Under the pieces are notes generated by a model. The model had not been told where the DNA came from. It saw nothing but the letters and a program-made list of their open reading frames with translations, and did not search any database. 64,000 nt of DNA, taken from Oribacterium sp. WCC10 (lineage in GTDB: Bacteria > Bacillota > Clostridia > Lachnospirales > Lachnospiraceae). Shown piece by piece: positions 29,465 to 36,494 of the stretch. Position 1 is the stretch's first letter, and every line of letters starts with the position of its first letter. Location of the stretch: NCBI RefSeq assembly GCF_900113415.1, contig NZ_FOPH01000012.1, positions 1 to 64,000 of the forward strand, in the 5' to 3' direction. Position numbers and translations under genes: made by a program.

Positions 29465-31130
29465 GTGTCCAAATTGTGGAGGAGATCTGCGATTCGATAT
29501 ACCTTCTCAAAAACTGAGGTGTGAGCATTGTGATACGACATTTGATCCATATTCTGTTGTTTATGAAGAGGATGCAAAGGAGACAAAAGATGCCCTTCAG
29601 GTGACTATCTTTACCTGTAAAAGCTGTGGTGCGGAGATATCAAGTACAAATCTAAATGCTTCGGGATTTTGTAGTTACTGCGGTCAGCCGGCGGTATTTT
29701 CTTCAAGGATCAGTAATGAAAGAAAACCGGAGAAGATCATTCCGTTTAAGATAGATAAGGCAGCATGCAGGGAAAACTTCATCAAACGAATGAAGGGGGC
29801 ACTTTATGCGCCTAAGGAACTCAGTGATCCGGACTCTCTTTCCGGATTTGTAGGCATTTATATGCCGTATTGGCTATATGATTTTTCAATCGGTCCACAG
29901 GTGATAGTGCCGGTTTCTAAAAGTAAGGAAAAAGGTAACTATATCTATACGGATAAGTTCAACATGACTATAGAGTTATCAGGAAAATTTGAGGGAATGG
30001 CATTTGACGCATCAAGCTCTTTTGATGATCATATAGCTGATGTTATAGCACCTTATGATGCCAGGGAAATGATGGATTTTACGCCTTCATTTCTATGTGG
30101 ATTCTATGCGGATGTGCCGGATGTGGGCTCCGAAACATATAAAGATGATGCGGAAGTTTCAGTACTGAAGCATACCTTCAAAGTGATCGATGCGGAATGC
30201 AAGAAAAAGGGATTTGACAGAGACAGTCTGGGCAGTAATGTTTCAAGAGCGGAGGATGCTGTCAAACTTAAGTATTCCGGTGAGAAGGAAGCGATGCTTC
30301 CCGTATGGTTTCTTACATATCGAAAAGGAGATAGAGTATGTTATTCTGTCATGAACGGTGTGACTGGAAAACTTGCGGCGGATATACCTGTTGATTTCAA
30401 GAAGTTTTATCTGACATCACTTTTGATAGCGATTCCGGTATTTATATTGCTTAACTTAAGTTTCACTGTTCAGGCCAAGTCGACACTTGTATTCTCAATG
30501 ATAATGGCCGTGGTTACGGCTTTTATCTATAAAAAGGAAATAGACATTATAAAAGCCAAGGAAGATCCGTTCAGTGATCAGGGATATGTTGCTGCGAGAT
30601 GCAATGGTGCATTTAAGGACGGGAAAAAAGTAGAGTCCAATGCCTACAAGGAGATAGGCAGTACGCTTTCAAAGAAGTCATCCGGAATGGGTGGATTTTC
30701 TATCATAGGTTTTCTTGTTTTGGCATACTGGGGAATTCAGATGGTTCTCGGAGTGGTTTATATTCTTGTGGAATTCTGGCCGCTAATACTTCTTGGAGTT
30801 ATCATTGTCGGAATCTGGATGCTGTGGGATACAATAAAAGGCAACAATAAAAAGAAGAAAGCGGCAGAGGGAAAGACAAAGAGCATACCTGAGAGGATAC
30901 AAAAAGATTTCAGATTCACTGAAATTTCGGGTGTTATCCTTGGACTCATCATAGCGATCGTGGTTCTTATATGGAATCCTATAGATGATATCAATTATTA
31001 TATCGCAAGTACAATTGTGTTCCTGGGCATAGTTTATACCATAACAGGAATCATTAAAAAATATAATATTTTGTCGACACACCCGATACCGGAGTTCTTT
31101 GACAGGGAAGGAGCCAACATCCATGCTTAA
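29457..31130 (+). CDS. Zinc-ribbon multipass membrane protein of unknown function
   Basis: A 557-residue protein. Two N-terminal zinc ribbons are visible: CPNC with CEHC (about residues 4-26) and CKSC with CSYC (about 54-74). A soluble region follows to about 315, with GIYMPYWLYDFS and MLPVWFLTYR, sequences seen in TFIIB-type zinc-ribbon membrane proteins. The C-terminal part has about six transmembrane segments (roughly 316-360, 405-460 and 485-540), with a Lys-rich loop near 463. The start overlaps citG by 8 bp and the end overlaps the TPM-protein leader, placing it in the cit maturation operon, though a role in citrate lyase is not known. The function is not recognised. Confidence 0.75.
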   Translation: MYECPNCGGDLRFDIPSQKLRCEHCDTTFDPYSVVYEEDAKETKDALQVTIFTCKSCGAEISSTNLNASGFCSYCGQPAVFSSRISNERKPEKIIPFKIDKAACRENFIKRMKGALYAPKELSDPDSLSGFVGIYMPYWLYDFSIGPQVIVPVSKSKEKGNYIYTDKFNMTIELSGKFEGMAFDASSSFDDHIADVIAPYDAREMMDFTPSFLCGFYADVPDVGSETYKDDAEVSVLKHTFKVIDAECKKKGFDRDSLGSNVSRAEDAVKLKYSGEKEAMLPVWFLTYRKGDRVCYSVMNGVTGKLAADIPVDFKKFYLTSLLIAIPVFILLNLSFTVQAKSTLVFSMIMAVVTAFIYKKEIDIIKAKEDPFSDQGYVAARCNGAFKDGKKVESNAYKEIGSTLSKKSSGMGGFSIIGFLVLAYWGIQMVLGVVYILVEFWPLILLGVIIVGIWMLWDTIKGNNKKKKAAEGKTKSIPERIQKDFRFTEISGVILGLIIAIVVLIWNPIDDINYYIASTIVFLGIVYTITGIIKKYNILSTHPIPEFFDREGANIHA

Positions 31131-32163
31131 AAAGAAGAATAACATAAAGATGCTGCTCACCGGATTAAGCTTCGGGTATATCATGAAGAAATATAAAAGA
31201 CACAGGTATGAGATCCACAGGAACAGGGCTTCTGTATTTCTGAGAGCTGTCATAGGAATGCTGATTGCGGTTTTTATATTTGCGTCGGAAGGATATGCTT
31301 CTCAAACATTGGATGATGTCAGCATAGATACAAATGATTACAATGCTGAATCGAATGGAGATTATATAGAAGAGTATACAGATGAAGAGGAAACCGAGAC
31401 GGAGTGGCTTGAAGAAGCTGAGATTGAGGGAAGAGAGTTCTATAGAAATCCTGATACGGGATATGTGGTTTATATACGTGATGAAGCAAATCTTCTTACT
31501 GATGATGAAGAGGAATCACTTGCCGTCAGTATGCAGCCTCTTACGGAAATAGGAAATGCTGCTTTTGTTTCAAGCATTGCAATACATGCAGATTCTACTG
31601 ATTACTTTACAGAAGCAAAATATCAGGAATTGTATGGATGGGAAAGCGGCACCATGTTCATGATAGATATGGACTTCAGGGAGATATATATACACAGCGA
31701 TGGTGAGATGTTTAAGGTTATAAATCGTGCCCGTGCTTTGACCATTACTGACAATGCTTACAGGCTTGCAGGAAAGGGAGATTACTACGGCTGTGCAAAT
31801 CTGGTGTTTGATCAGATGATCCGGGTTATAAACGGTGAGCGTATAGCTCAGCCTATGAAGTACACAAGTAATGCCGTTCTCGCGATTATCATCGCTCTTC
31901 TTATGAATTTTGGATTGCTGGTGTTTTCCAGAAGGTCATACGCAAAAGAAATGAAGACCGAAGAGGTGCTTATGCACGCCATGAACAGCTTCGTGGTGGG
32001 AGCAAGTGTTGAGGCGTTCATTAGACAAACAAAGCAATATGTGTCACATTCTTCCGGCAGCAGTGGCGGAAGTCATCACAGTAGTGGTGGGTCTCATAGC
32101 AGCGGAGGATTCCATAGCAGCGGAGGCGGCCACCATGGCGGAGGCGGTGGACATAGATTTTGA
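31123..32163 (+). CDS. TPM-domain membrane protein with Gly/Ser/His-rich tail
   Basis: A 346-residue protein. A basic N-terminus and a membrane segment (about 33-50) lead to an acidic linker, then a TPM domain (about 105-235: VYIRDEANLLTDDEEESLA, GTMFMIDMDFREIYIHSDGE). A second membrane helix follows (about 250-270), and the last 35 residues are almost only Gly, Ser and His. TPM proteins (YgcG/TLP18.3-like) are often membrane-associated and sometimes phosphatase-like. I use the ATG at 31123 after AAGGAG; a TTG at 31099 would overlap the preceding gene further. The TGA stop is also the first triplet of the 115-bp repeat that follows. No link to citrate metabolism is established. Confidence 0.8.
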   Translation: MLKKKNNIKMLLTGLSFGYIMKKYKRHRYEIHRNRASVFLRAVIGMLIAVFIFASEGYASQTLDDVSIDTNDYNAESNGDYIEEYTDEEETETEWLEEAEIEGREFYRNPDTGYVVYIRDEANLLTDDEEESLAVSMQPLTEIGNAAFVSSIAIHADSTDYFTEAKYQELYGWESGTMFMIDMDFREIYIHSDGEMFKVINRARALTITDNAYRLAGKGDYYGCANLVFDQMIRVINGERIAQPMKYTSNAVLAIIIALLMNFGLLVFSRRSYAKEMKTEEVLMHAMNSFVVGASVEAFIRQTKQYVSHSSGSSGGSHHSSGGSHSSGGFHSSGGGHHGGGGGHRF

Positions 32164-32275
32164 GTGGAGGAGTTTTGCATCAGCAAAACTCCGACCGAAA
32201 TGGCAGTTTTTCAGAAGGAAAAACTGTTTTGCGAAGCAAAATCAGGTGAAGGCCAACGAAAGGCCGAACCTGACC
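32161..32275 (+). repeat. 115-bp multi-hairpin repeat, copy A
   Basis: Identical base for base to copy B at 36184-36298. It begins with the TGA stop of the TPM gene and ends before citC. Hairpins in order: GGAGTTTTGC-ATCA-GCAAAACTCC; CAGTTTTTC-N5-GAAAAACTG; TTTTGC-GAA-GCAAAA; and TCAGGT...ACCTGA enclosing GGCC...GGCC. There is no T-tract, so it is not an ordinary terminator. It lacks the GGCGGAGCGCC-type extension found after copies B and C. Confidence 0.92.
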
Positions 32276-32304
32276 CGAAGATAGAGTAAAGGAAATAATA
32301 ATTT

Positions 32305-33510
32305 ATGGCAGAAGCTAATTATGCAATATCATCAGTGGGACCACGTGACAGATATATGATGGAACAGGTGGAACAACTGCTTGAAAGAGAAGGGATACAC
32401 CTTGATAAGAATCTGGATTATACGGCAGCTATGCTTGATGACGATTACAATGTTATAGCCACAGGCAGCTGTTTCGGAAATACACTGAGATGCATGGCGG
32501 TAAGCTCTGATCATCAGGGTGAGGCATTGATGAATGACATAGTGTCGCATCTTATCGAGTATCAGTACAGCAGAGGAAACTATCATCTTTTTCTCTACAC
32601 CAAGTGTAATACTGCATTATTTTTCTCAAGTCTTGGCTTTCGTGAGATAGCCAGAATGGAAGAATCAAATATAGTGTTCATGGAGAACAAAAGAACCGGT
32701 TTCGGAGATTATCTTGAAAGACTTCGCAAGGAATCTATTGAACAGCTCGAAAAAATGGATGATGAAAAAGCCGGTATATATCTTGAACATTTAAAAATGT
32801 ATTCTGATTCGAAGTATGCTGTAGATAAGAGTTTTGTAAATGATGATTCCAAAACGGATGGAAAGACAGAAGATGCAGCCTTAAAGAGCGAATGCATCAG
32901 AGTCGGTGCAATAGTAATGAATGCGAATCCTTTTACTTTAGGACATCAGTATCTTGTTGAGACAGCACTGAAGGGATGCGATATACTTCATATCTTTATG
33001 GTATCTGAGGACGCCAGTCTTGTCCCTTTCAGCGTCAGAAAGAAACTTATCAAGGAGGGTACCGAGAAGCTTGACAGAATCATTTACCATGAATCAGGTT
33101 CATATATCATAAGTTCTGCAACATTTCCAGCATATTTCCAAAAGGGAGATAATGCGGTAATAAAGAGTCAGGCCGGTATAGATCTCCATGTATTTGAAGG
33201 AATAGCAGCCAAGCTTCATATAAATGAAAGATTTGTTGGAAGCGAACCAACATCTCTCGTTACAGGAATTTACAATGATATTATGGCTGAGGCATTACCG
33301 AAGGCAGGAATTGAGTGTCACATCATAGAGAGAAAAGAAGCTGACGGAAAGGCAATATCTGCTTCGACGGTAAGACAGGCTTTACACGACGGTGATATGG
33401 ATACAGTGAAAAAACTTGTCCCGGAAACAACGTATAGTTTTTTCATAAGCGATGAGGCGAAACCGGTTATCGACAGGATAAAACAGGAATGTGACGTAGT
33501 GCATTACTGA
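32305..33510 (+). CDS. citC: [Citrate (pro-3S)-lyase] ligase
   Basis: A 401-residue enzyme that acetylates the thiol of the CitD prosthetic group with ATP and acetate, switching citrate lyase on. The N-terminal GNAT domain (about 1-145) is followed by a nucleotidyltransferase-fold ligase domain with the HIGH-like motif NPFTLGHQYLVE (H214), then LVPFSVRKKLIKEG, FVGSEPTS and ISASTVRQAL. AAAGGAA precedes the ATG. It is last in the cit cluster and separated from the TPM gene by the 115-bp repeat, so the repeat lies in its 5' leader. It is paralogous in its N-terminal domain to the protein at 26843. Confidence 0.95.
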   Translation: MAEANYAISSVGPRDRYMMEQVEQLLEREGIHLDKNLDYTAAMLDDDYNVIATGSCFGNTLRCMAVSSDHQGEALMNDIVSHLIEYQYSRGNYHLFLYTKCNTALFFSSLGFREIARMEESNIVFMENKRTGFGDYLERLRKESIEQLEKMDDEKAGIYLEHLKMYSDSKYAVDKSFVNDDSKTDGKTEDAALKSECIRVGAIVMNANPFTLGHQYLVETALKGCDILHIFMVSEDASLVPFSVRKKLIKEGTEKLDRIIYHESGSYIISSATFPAYFQKGDNAVIKSQAGIDLHVFEGIAAKLHINERFVGSEPTSLVTGIYNDIMAEALPKAGIECHIIERKEADGKAISASTVRQALHDGDMDTVKKLVPETTYSFFISDEAKPVIDRIKQECDVVHY

Positions 33511-33695
33511 TCAAAATAAGTCTTGCAATACAGATACTTTTATATTAAAATATGTCAGTATTTTGTGAGCTTGTATACTGAAAATGCTTAGTACAGAGCC
33601 ACGAAGCAATATTATTTAATTAAATTAGTATAAACAGAATGGAATATTCAGGGGTTTCATTGCTTTCTTCAATGGATATTGAGGAAACCATAAAG

Positions 33696-33726
33696 GGAAT
33701 CCTGAGGGATTCCTGCATTTTTTAGG
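33696..33726 (+). promoter_or_regulatory. Terminator-like hairpin just before the efp ribosome binding site
   Basis: GGAATCC-N4-GGATTCC (33696-33713) and TGCATTTTTT lie directly before AGGAGG. It could end an upstream transcript or attenuate efp. Confidence 0.5.
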
Positions 33727-33734
33727 AGGATTTT

Positions 33735-34292
33735 ATGGTATCAGCAGGTGATTTCAGAAACGGTGTCACACTCGAGATTGATGGTCAGGTTGTTCAGATC
33801 ATTGAGTTCCAGCACGTTAAGCCAGGTAAGGGAGCAGCTTTCGTAAGAACAAAGCTTAAGAATGTAATCAACGGTGGTGTTACAGAGCGTACATTCCGTC
33901 CTACAGAGAAGTTCCCACCAGCACACATCGACAGACAGGATATGCAGTATCTTTACGATGATGGTGAGATGTATAACTTCATGAATCCTGAGACATTTGA
34001 GCAGATCGCTCTTTCACACGATGAGATCGCTGATTCTATGAAGTTTGTTAAGGAGAACGAGACAGTTCGTGTTGATTCTTACCAGGGTAAGGTATTCGCA
34101 GTAGAGCCACCTCTTAAGGTTACTCTTGAGGTTACTCACACTGAGCCGGGCGTTAAGGGCAACACAGCTACAGGTGCTACAAAGCCTGCAACACTTGAGA
34201 CAGGTGTAGAGATTCAGGTTCCTCTTTTCGTTAATATCGGAGACAAGGTTATCGTTTCTACACAGACAGGTCAGTACGAGTCTCGTGGCTAA
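33735..34292 (+). CDS. efp: Translation elongation factor P
   Basis: A 185-residue three-domain factor that rescues ribosomes stalled at polyproline. Residues [11 protein letters not shown] open the KOW-like domain I, and the loop KPGKGAAF places lysine at position 32, the residue modified in many species. The C-terminal OB domain ends with [22 protein letters not shown] precedes the ATG, and codon bias is strong. A terminator follows at 34328. Whether K32 is modified cannot be judged: no epmA/epmB or ymfI-like gene is adjacent. Confidence 0.97.
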
Positions 34293-34327
34293 TTAAAGAA
34301 TTTTGCGGAGAAATCTCCGTTATGAGA

Positions 34328-34356
34328 AAGGTTTCCCGAAAGGAAGCCTTTTTTTT
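34328..34356 (+). terminator. Terminator of efp
   Basis: AAGGTTTCC-N5-GGAAGCCTT (one wobble) and T8. It lies between the efp stop and the argS start and rules out argS starts upstream of it. Confidence 0.85.
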
Positions 34357-34380
34357 ATAAAGATGAAAAGGAGTTTTACA

Positions 34381-36186
34381 TTGACTACAATACTTAATAT
34401 TATAGGAGATGCGGTAAGAACAGGTTTTGTTCTCGCAGGATATGATTCAGAACTTGGAAAAGTTACAGTATCCAATCGTCCTGATCTTTGTGAATATCAG
34501 TGCAACGGTGCAATGGCCGGTGCAAAGCAGTATCATAAGAAGCCTATAGATATCGCAAATGAAGTAGTAGAGAAGCTTAAGGACATGAAGAGAGATGATG
34601 TTCTTATGTTTTCAGAAGTGAATGCGGTTATGCCGGGATTTATAAACATTAATCTCTCACAGGATCTTGTAAAGAAGTATCTCAATGAGATGACATTCCA
34701 TGAGGATCTGGGACTTGATGCACATGAAGGCAAGAAAATCATCGTTGATTATGGTGGAGCTAATGTTGCAAAGCCTCTTCATGTCGGACATCTTCGCTCG
34801 GCTGTTATCGGTGAAACAATCAAGCGTATGGCTAAACAGCAGGGAAATGAGGTTATCGGTGATGTACACCTCGGTGACTGGGGTCTTCAGATGGGACTCA
34901 TCATTGCTGAGCTTGAAGACAGAGGCCAGCTTGATGCAGAGCTCAATATCTCACAGCTTGAGGAGATTTATCCGTTCGCATCAAAGAAGGCAAAAGATAA
35001 AAATGAAGACGGAACTCTTGTGAATCCTGAGTTTGCAGAGCGTGCCCATACAGCTACAGTTAAGCTTCAGGAAGGTGATCCTAAGTACCGTGAGGTATGG
35101 AAGAAGATTATGGCTGTTTCTGTTGCCGACCTTAAGAAGAACTATGGAAATCTGGATGTACACTTCGATCTTTGGAAGGGCGAAAGTGATGCACAGCCTT
35201 ATATTCCGGGACTTATACAGGATCTTCAGGATAAGGGACTTGCATATGAGTCACAGGGGGCTCTGGTAGTTGATGTCAATGAGCCTACAGATCCTAAGGA
35301 AATTCCTCCATGTATGGTTCGTAAGTCAGATGGTGGTGCGCTTTATGCAACATCCGATCTGGGAACCATCATTGAACGTGAGAAGCTGTATCAGCCGGAC
35401 GGATACATTTACATCGCTGACAGCCGTCAGTCACTTCACTATACCCAGTTCTTCAGAGTTGCCAGAAAGGCAGGCTTTGTAAGACCTGAGGAAGATCTTA
35501 AGTTCATCGGTTTCGGTACTATGAATGGTAAGGACGGAAAGCCGTTCAAGACTCGTGAGGGTGGTGTTCTTCGTCTTGAGAATCTCATCAGAGAGACCAA
35601 TGAGAAGGTTCTTGAGCGTATCAAGGAGTCAAGAGGCGATGAAATCAGTCAGGAAGAAGCAGAGAATATCGCAACACTTGTCGGCCTTGCAGCCCTCAAG
35701 TATGGGGATCTCAGCAATCAGGCTACCAAGGATTATATTTTCGATCTTGATAAGTTTACTTCCTTTGAAGGTAATACAGGACCATATATTCTGTATACTA
35801 TCGTTCGTATAAGCTCAATCATCAGAAAGTTCATGCAGGAGCAGGGAGCTTCAGCTGATATGAGCGTTGAGGACTTTATCAAGAGTCGTGCGGTTGATTT
35901 CACAATCCTTCCTATAGAGGATAAGAGCGGACGTGCGCTTGAGACACTTCTGACAAGATATCATGATGAGATAAATGGCGCATGGAGAGATCTTGCACCT
36001 CACCGTATATGTTCATATATCTATGAAGTATCCAATGCCTTCAACAGCTTCTACCATGATGTTAAGTTCCTTAGTGAGCCTGACGAGGCAAAGAAGCAGG
36101 GCTACATGGGACTTTTGATGCTTACATGGAAGGTACTTAACACCTGTATAGATACATTGGGCTTCAGCGCACCTGAGAGAATGTGA
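34381..36186 (+). CDS. argS: Arginyl-tRNA synthetase
   Basis: A 601-residue class Ia synthetase. The N-terminal Add-1 domain is followed by the HIGH-type motif HVGH (H134, in KPLHVGHLRSAVIGE). The degenerate KMSKS region reads GKPFKTREGG, as usual for ArgRS, and the C-terminal DALR anticodon domain closes with AHRICSY-like APHRICSYIYEVSNAFNSFYHDVKF. I place the start at TTG 34381, 7 bases after AAAAGGAG; an ATG at 34363 has no ribosome binding site and lies against the efp terminator. The TGA stop is the first triplet of repeat copy B. Confidence 0.95.
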   Translation: MTTILNIIGDAVRTGFVLAGYDSELGKVTVSNRPDLCEYQCNGAMAGAKQYHKKPIDIANEVVEKLKDMKRDDVLMFSEVNAVMPGFININLSQDLVKKYLNEMTFHEDLGLDAHEGKKIIVDYGGANVAKPLHVGHLRSAVIGETIKRMAKQQGNEVIGDVHLGDWGLQMGLIIAELEDRGQLDAELNISQLEEIYPFASKKAKDKNEDGTLVNPEFAERAHTATVKLQEGDPKYREVWKKIMAVSVADLKKNYGNLDVHFDLWKGESDAQPYIPGLIQDLQDKGLAYESQGALVVDVNEPTDPKEIPPCMVRKSDGGALYATSDLGTIIEREKLYQPDGYIYIADSRQSLHYTQFFRVARKAGFVRPEEDLKFIGFGTMNGKDGKPFKTREGGVLRLENLIRETNEKVLERIKESRGDEISQEEAENIATLVGLAALKYGDLSNQATKDYIFDLDKFTSFEGNTGPYILYTIVRISSIIRKFMQEQGASADMSVEDFIKSRAVDFTILPIEDKSGRALETLLTRYHDEINGAWRDLAPHRICSYIYEVSNAFNSFYHDVKFLSEPDEAKKQGYMGLLMLTWKVLNTCIDTLGFSAPERM

Positions 36187-36330
36187 GTGGAGGAGTTTTG
36201 CATCAGCAAAACTCCGACCGAAATGGCAGTTTTTCAGAAGGAAAAACTGTTTTGCGAAGCAAAATCAGGTGAAGGCCAACGAAAGGCCGAACCTGACCGG
36301 CGGAGCGCCAGCGGGAACGGCCAAGTAAAC
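36184..36330 (+). repeat. 115-bp multi-hairpin repeat, copy B (with 3' extension)
   Basis: 36184-36298 is identical to copy A. The next bases (36299-36322) add a GGCG-GAG-CGCC hairpin and a GC-rich segment that copy C shares in diverged form. The copy begins with the argS stop codon and is followed at a 138-bp period by copy C. Confidence 0.92.
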
Positions 36331-36460
36331 AAGTTTTGCATCAGCAAAACTCCGACCGACATGGCAGTTTTTCAGAAGGATAAACTGTTTTGCAAAGCAA
36401 AATCAGGTGAAGGCCGACCAAAGGCCGAACCTGACCTGCGGAGCGCCGTCGGGTACGGCC
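36331..36460 (+). repeat. Multi-hairpin repeat, copy C (diverged)
   Basis: Same order of hairpins as A and B with about ten substitutions. Many fall in loops (TTTTGC-AAA-GCAAAA, GGCCgaccaaaGGCC); one breaks a pair in the second stem (GATAAACTG). At the 3' end, GCCGT-CGGGT-ACGGC forms a perfect stem that is imperfect in copy B. It ends just before the leader of the phosphoesterase gene, where GGGTATAATAG offers a -10. Confidence 0.85.
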
Positions 36461-36494
36461 GGGTATAATAGTTTGTGGAAAGGAAAATATAGTT

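Follow-up and report, generated by a model that had tools for sequence, protein, structure and literature searches.

A structured, probably mobile repeat at gene ends in Oribacterium and other Lachnospiraceae

The first 64,000 nucleotides of contig NZ_FOPH01000012.1 of Oribacterium sp. WCC10 (hereafter the window) contain a 115-bp sequence in two identical copies 4 kb apart, with a diverged third copy next to the second, and each identical copy begins at the stop codon of an unrelated gene. What kind of repeat is this, and how did it come to lie at the ends of genes? We found that the three copies belong to a real family of structured mobile repeats, for which the literature searched holds no earlier description. 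An original prediction, made from the letters of the window, had considered a miniature inverted-repeat transposable element (MITE), a repeat of the REP/BIME type and a mobile RNA inserting at gene ends.

Fold and covariation of the repeat

Units of the family are 99–119 nt long (35 hand-cut units) and most of them fold alike. Each consists, in order, of NAGYGNAG, a hairpin H1 with an ATCA-type loop, a linker, three hairpins H2, H3 and H4, and a final CC. The unit further has a GY/RC pair, which flanks an internal loop of the GNA/GGA type, and its linker is of the GATATGG type. H3 often has a GAA triloop, and H4 carries GA and AG at two inner positions in about one third of the copies (28 and 26 of 80 rows, respectively). 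H2 to H4 are contiguous and free of spacers, and the two bases 5′ of H2 pair with the two bases 3′ of H4, so that the three hairpins and their closing pairs form a four-way junction. Over 112 rows the closing pairs are GG:CC in 77, CC:GG in 5, AC:GT in 5 and other combinations in 25. The four to five hairpins in fixed order originally proposed are in fact four, in a single architecture across units.

The sequence of the element keeps changing while its four-hairpin, cross-shaped fold is preserved, and covariation of the stems is very strong. Among 24 units aligned with MAFFT, two-sided variation affects 27 of 36 pairs, and pairing is found in 91.7% of cells, compared to 29–50% when the partners were slid in the same alignment as a control. 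With 60 units including other genera, both-sided change, the pattern anticipated for the stems, was found in 36 of 37 pairs (627 cells), junction-closing pairs included; H1 alone covaries in 10 of 10 pairs over 87 distinct rows. Of the alignments behind such counts, A6 and A7 are biased towards the model used to fit them, and A5 was made without structure, its structure being written after reading those sequences. Eight genomes of one other genus (g178) and genome G680 have the same predicted folds with different sequence.

The window carries the following features of the three copies, named A, B and C:

32161–32275, + strand: copy A, a complete unit, between a TPM-domain gene (31099–32163) and a citrate-lyase-ligase-domain gene (32305–33510), both from Pfam
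32169–32192, + strand: H1 of copy A, 10-bp stem with an ATCA loop (fold, covariation)
32202–32203, + strand: GG of copy A, which closes the four-way junction with CC 32274–32275 (covariation)
32204–32226, + strand: H2 of copy A (fold, covariation)
32227–32241, + strand: H3 of copy A, with a GAA triloop (fold, covariation)
32242–32273, + strand: H4 of copy A, interrupted by an asymmetric internal loop, GAA/GA (fold, covariation)
32274–32275, + strand: CC of copy A, the 3′ half of the junction-closing pair, with which the core unit ends (covariation)
36184–36298, + strand: copy B, a complete unit whose first bases are the TGA of argS (sequence comparison, Pfam)
36192–36215, + strand: H1 of copy B (fold)
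36225–36298, + strand: four-way-junction domain of copy B, made up of GG, H2 (36227–36249), H3 (36250–36264), H4 (36265–36296) and CC
36299–36331, + strand: tail of copy B, a GGCGGAGCGCC hairpin plus AGCGGGAACGGCCAAGTAAACA
36323–36436, + strand: copy C, a diverged tandem unit with the basal pairs of H1 lost
36437–36469, + strand: tail of copy C

Sequence comparison bore out the description of the copies. A and B agree over 115 bp without one difference and diverge directly 3′ of it, and C is a diverged tandem copy of B with a period of 138 bp; both B and C lie between argS and a calcineurin-like phosphoesterase gene (Pfam). Counted from 36194, 14 of 138 positions distinguish C from B. These differences, said at first to lie largely in loops, fall mainly in loops, linker and tail, and one of them, at 36243, breaks an H2 pair. 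The GG at 36192–36193, which forms the two basal pairs of H1, is not retained in copy C. Tails resembling that of copy B follow many copies in related Oribacterium genomes. A 147-nt stretch containing copy B folds much more stably than 200 dinucleotide shuffles, with z-scores of −5.4 (+ strand) and −7.2 (− strand). The first bases of copies A and B are indeed the TGA of the TPM-domain gene and of argS, respectively; as a refinement, we place the true start of the element at or near the GA of TGA, so that the stop codon spans the junction between gene and element.

The array formed by B and C is also open over 93 codons with a period of 46 codons (open reading frame 36187–36468), as a coding repeat would be. 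Unit lengths elsewhere (99–119 nt) do not change in steps of three, and it is the stems that are conserved; the unit lengths led us to reject a coding repeat, whose probability we consider negligible.

Occurrence of the family and placement of its copies

Further copies were found in the same genome (G000), in other Oribacterium and in other Lachnospiraceae. BLAST returned 6 matches in G000 with the 115-bp query and 7 with a 147-bp query, and 10 of 61 genomes, G000 included, matched the BLAST query, all of them Oribacterium; the 24 order-level genomes outside Lachnospiraceae gave no BLAST match. We then relied on three models, R1 (H1 and linker), R2 (all four hairpins) and the later R3. R1 matched 15 of the 17 Oribacterium genomes compared, G000 among them (E≤0.05), and R2 and R3 added G009, which R1 had missed, bringing the positive genomes to 16 of 17. 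In the remaining one, G013, neither R1 on the whole genome nor R3 on seven loci gave a match. Beyond the genus, R2 matched 7 of 397 Lachnospiraceae genomes at E≤0.01, one of these matches (G209) being judged chance on reading, and R3 matched 7 of 397 at E≤1e-4; R1 matches in G079 and G067 also look like chance when read. At the level of the order, R2 matched 12 of 392 genomes at E≤0.001, all Lachnospiraceae and eight of them g178, in a search for which the families of most genomes were not listed. The family is thus present in Oribacterium and several other Lachnospiraceae genera. Since searches over more than 40 genomes scored 9–15 candidates apiece, these genome counts are lower bounds.

Over the stretches searched, the element itself drew no match from any Rfam covariance model, and neither Rfam nor the literature held a described family that matches it, in keeping with the prediction. 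An 18-mer from the element had no match in IMG/VR; a 14-mer had 95, and none of the 80 listed loci reached E≤1 when scanned with R2. Phage and plasmid collections gave no match to the element either. Carriage by phages or plasmids was rejected on these searches, which returned no family member.

To describe placement, we reduced the 112 rows to 84 arrays by taking first units, a set that still includes second units and palindromic double hits. These arrays fall into 58 groups by upstream protein, 34 of which have a same-strand upstream frame of at least 80 codons. The stop codon lies −5 to +7 nt from the first base of the element in 24 of these 34 site groups, a group being counted as near if any member was near (23 of 33 if L139, a site of the MPREGWDE type counted separately, is merged). 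Ungrouped, a stop is near the element for 47 of 61 sense frames versus 2 of 30 opposite-strand frames at the 3′ end. Under uniform placement, 5.7% would be expected to lie 7 nt or less from a stop, a figure that stands for 0–7 nt after the stop in the window's co-directional gaps of less than 400 nt with crude gene calls. Insertion at gene ends, suspected from copies A and B, is therefore general. The element often furnishes the stop codon itself, in two frames (GAG TGA and GCG TAG).

Among the genes so occupied are argS, fabG, pheS, aspS and a gene for a small protein ending in MPREGWDE, which has no Pfam match; fabF, pheT and gatC were named from reading the sequences, and fabG matched short-chain dehydrogenase families only. 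Copies in L121 and L199 begin directly after the last base of a tRNA match (GY taken as start), and the copy in L066 abuts the 5′ end of a tRNA in reversed orientation. Other copies lie in 16S rRNA leaders (G000, G016 and G009) or after 23S rRNA (G015 and G016). Several sites are common to different species, indicating that the insertions at those sites are old, and other gene ends are occupied in different lineages. Gene conversion and recent spread had both been put forward for the identity of A and B. Both of their sites are common to several species and hence represent old insertions; we infer that copying or conversion between the two sites 4 kb apart is likelier than recent spread.

The assembly of G000 breaks inside the fabG/fabF copy (L004 at the end of contig C32 and L005 at the start of contig C21) and has rRNA-leader copies at contig ends as well. 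At the fabG site of G007 (L062:1501–2198), four tandem model matches follow one another with a 176-bp period and an enlarged H2.

Filled and empty sites

Gene ends without the element were read by eye and then checked with R3. The 3′ end of fabG is free of it in G002, G008, G009 and G013, and that of argS in G003, G005, G006, G007, G008, G009 and G013; the argS copies of G016 and G012 carry deletions. R3 found no unit in these empty argS and fabG loci except one about 0.5 kb from argS of G007 (L185), on the opposite strand.

Two comparisons within single genomes are clean, one in G015 and one in the fold-back repeat of G009; a third, in the 16S leader of G009, is not. In G015, a filled and an empty 23S rRNA 3′ flank (L215 and L225) differ by 108 nt, with a duplication of 0–1 nt. 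The unit of G009 is embedded in a fold-back repeat of about 300 bp. Its flanks within this repeat are separated by 108 nt in each of the 7 copies parsed (three further filled copies fell outside the parsing pattern) and by 0 nt in L383. Related repeats in L171 and L186 of G013 are empty at the same place, with flanks 0 nt apart. Precise insertion of 108 nt without target duplication is thus supported by two within-genome comparisons, and with it the view of the repeat as a mobile element. The left flank of the empty L383 is 98.8% identical to that of the filled L375, and L382 and L388, which are 81–82% similar to L383, are filled too, making a precise excision in L383 plausible; the alternative is a copy that was never filled. 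An A precedes the GY pair in 55 of 57 site groups. Since this A lies inside the insert in G009, it is probably part of the element and not of the target, and an earlier view of insertion 3′ of GA was dropped.

The fold-back repeat of G009 also suggests another reading, in which a DDE transposase would move a larger fold-back or MITE element that has inverted ends and the unit as its core, and standalone units would be trimmed descendants of it. Eight of the nine G009 copies found with R3 do share about 300 bp, and most have ends resembling GGGGCTGTAAAAAATCAAAAT together with the complement, forming a long closing stem. However, L383 of G009 and L171 and L186 of G013 have the same fold-back repeat but no unit, and the flanks of the unit's place meet exactly there; the inverted ends belong to the fold-back repeat of G009. 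The exact 13-mer GGGGCTGTAAAAA is confined to G009 loci among the non-viral loci examined, and the G015 pair differs by the unit alone. A standalone unit has no terminal inverted repeats, and the duplication amounted to 0–1 nt in G015 and 0 nt in G009, so the MITE-like nature first considered is not supported by these two comparisons; we regard a trimmed fold-back element as very improbable. In G009 the fold-back repeat, whose inverted ends lie near GGGGCTGTAAAAAATCAAAAT, is found at L374–L383 and L388, both in a form that carries the unit and in one that lacks it.

Known classes and readings of the element

The BOX elements of pneumococcus are modular, have several hairpins and occur in a Gram-positive host, and the Oribacterium element resembles them on each of these points of the general description. 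HEARO, or omega RNA, is a structured mobile element that prefers certain insertion sites; on the same kind of description the present element is much shorter, and it has no Rfam match.

REP sequences, according to the accessible parts of PMC2817692, PMC6006769 and PMC3733652, are single hairpins, 21–65 nt in length, that carry a GT[AG]G tag and frequently form inverted pairs next to the gene for a REP-associated Y1 tyrosine transposase (RAYT). Like REP/BIME sequences as described there, the element is palindromic and extragenic, with a short foot 5′ of a hairpin and compensating stem changes. A repeat moved by a RAYT would further account for the GTGG or GTAG found 5′ of H1 in some copies (A, B and the fabG sites) and for the lack of target duplication, and Y1_Tnp (PF01797) is present in 9 of 17 Oribacterium genomes, some with Y1 proteins in open frames of about 200–285 aa. 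However, where a REP would have its GT[AG]G tetranucleotide, 0–2 nt 5′ of the hairpin, other copies have GTGA, GCGG or GTGC, so that the tag is not conserved, and the units, at 99–119 nt with four hairpins in fixed order and a four-way junction, stand in direct tandem. Y1_Tnp had no match at E≤0.001 in G000, nor in G002, G003, G005, G007, G010, G011 and G016, and four loci with Y1 frames of about 200–255 aa had no perfect hairpin of at least 7 bp with a 3–6 nt loop and no linker motif. The REP/BIME-like origin suggested earlier, along with its tyrosine transposase, is therefore improbable.

For ERIC/IRU, the accessible text of PMC2229807 describes a small non-coding mobile repeat between genes that is RNA-structured and reportedly co-transcribed, with a reported effect on the stability of the upstream transcript, and for YPAL/RU-2 internal instead of terminal inverted repeats and known filled and empty sites; both are listed with target duplications, and ERIC with terminal inverted repeats and TA ends, which the present unit does not have. 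All are alike as small structured intergenic mobile repeats, but ERIC and YPAL differ in their enterobacterial hosts and target duplications, and that portion of PMC2229807 makes no mention of a four-way junction, which the Oribacterium element possesses. IS200/IS605 elements, in the accessible parts of PMC6006769 and PMC2817692, are processed as folded single strands and have neither terminal inverted repeats nor a larger target duplication. The element agrees with them in the absence of both and in having hairpins near its ends, but no transposase gene, autonomous relative or target motif was found for it.

The pairs themselves bear on whether DNA or RNA is the form that matters. Core pairs comprise 1825 Watson-Crick, 30 G.T (1.6%) and 13 A.C, counted on the 84 best of 112 rows (80 after duplicate removal), whereas 47 tRNAs from the same loci have 936 Watson-Crick and 58 G.U pairs (5.8%). 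Among close copies, two-sided changes outnumber one-sided ones by 277 to 61. Rare G.T pairs and two-sided changes suit a single-stranded DNA, or copying that matches one arm to the other, better than an ordinary RNA.

The reading that we favour, with a probability of roughly 0.48, is a mobile DNA element, about 110 nt long and non-autonomous, that would be processed as a folded single strand and retained between cistrons as an RNA block. The folded strand, made up of the H1 domain and the H2–H4 junction, would be handled by an enzyme acting in trans, and the element would enter, and perhaps leave, precisely, with no duplication of the target. The 5′ end of the element, NAGYGNAG, would supply stop codons in more than one frame, and we propose that this makes an insertion into the final codons of a gene tolerable. 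There, whether between cistrons, behind a tRNA or in an rRNA leader, it would be transcribed along with its neighbours and form a compact block of RNA, and certain occupied sites would be retained for a long time. Structure and gene-end placement are well supported. The lineage-specific gene ends, the 108-nt pairs in G015 and G009, the nearness to stops, the covariation, the rarity of G.T and the tandem copies all speak for a mobile DNA element, and the existence of the fold-back repeat without the unit strengthens this view as it weakens the fold-back alternative. The single-stranded intermediate, the enzyme, the reason for the gene-end preference and any effect on expression are inferred.

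Several observations weigh against it. No mobilising enzyme was found, and the Y1_Tnp-free genomes include some with 9–17 R1 matches; no target motif was established. The unit in G009 may have travelled along with the fold-back repeat. Many sites are shared between species, which leaves little sign of present movement in the group of the window, and such retention also fits a cis-acting RNA. Finally, G.T exceeds A.C by 30 to 13 (p = 0.014, copies being taken as independent, as in all our p-values, although they are related), a hint of selection on the strand as read, possibly as RNA. With the sense placement, this mild excess makes a role as RNA possible.

A cis-acting structured RNA of 3′ and intercistronic regions, kept by selection and spreading occasionally to new genes, is another possible explanation, to which we give a chance well below even. 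Such an RNA would stop 3′ exonucleases or determine how much upstream product is made relative to downstream product, and H1 would be opened by the terminating ribosome. The sense orientation of copies at gene ends, positions between co-directional genes (argS/phosphoesterase, fabG/fabF and pheS/pheT), the same sites across species with stems still paired despite changed sequence, and copies found in the leaders of 16S rRNA or behind 23S rRNA and tRNA genes all agree with it. In contrast, related species have empty or decayed sites, some copies are antisense to a tRNA or a neighbouring gene (L066 and L113), G.T pairs are rarer than in tRNAs, and the exact presence or absence of 108 nt points to movement.

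The mobile element favoured above might even represent a new class, although we hold this tentatively and think it rather unlikely. Such a class of small mobile nucleic-acid elements would be defined by a spacer-free four-way junction with a hairpin domain, compensating changes in nearly every pair, exact entry and exit without target duplication, and a sense-directed preference for the 3′ boundaries of genes (stop codons or the last base of a tRNA), perhaps via RNA or translation termination and by means of a non-Y1 enzyme. The small bacterial repeats described in the accessible parts of the literature are mostly single hairpins or imperfect palindromes, whereas this element has a four-way junction; absent from Rfam, it marks where housekeeping genes end in Oribacterium as well as in further Lachnospiraceae. 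With it one can test how a mobile element settles harmlessly at gene ends, and whether such inserts become operon regulators.

Other structured sequences were seen near the copies. Several Oribacterium genomes share a second multi-hairpin module (GAGAAAATGCCAT ... GGCATTTTCG ... CTCGCCGGCTGGGCGGCATCC ... GGATATA, also in variant forms); it follows the linker of a unit in L008, L021, L029 and L137, lies nearby in L118 and L352, and part of it stands just 5′ of a 16S rRNA gene in G016. At L382:484–653, an Rfam match to Clostridiales-1 RNA lies beside a T-box match below the cut-off. In G000, L090 and L091 (contigs C15 and C41) hold another repeat, in which an H1-like hairpin (TGAGTTTTTCATCAGGAAAACTCA and a variant) is enclosed by an outer inverted repeat.

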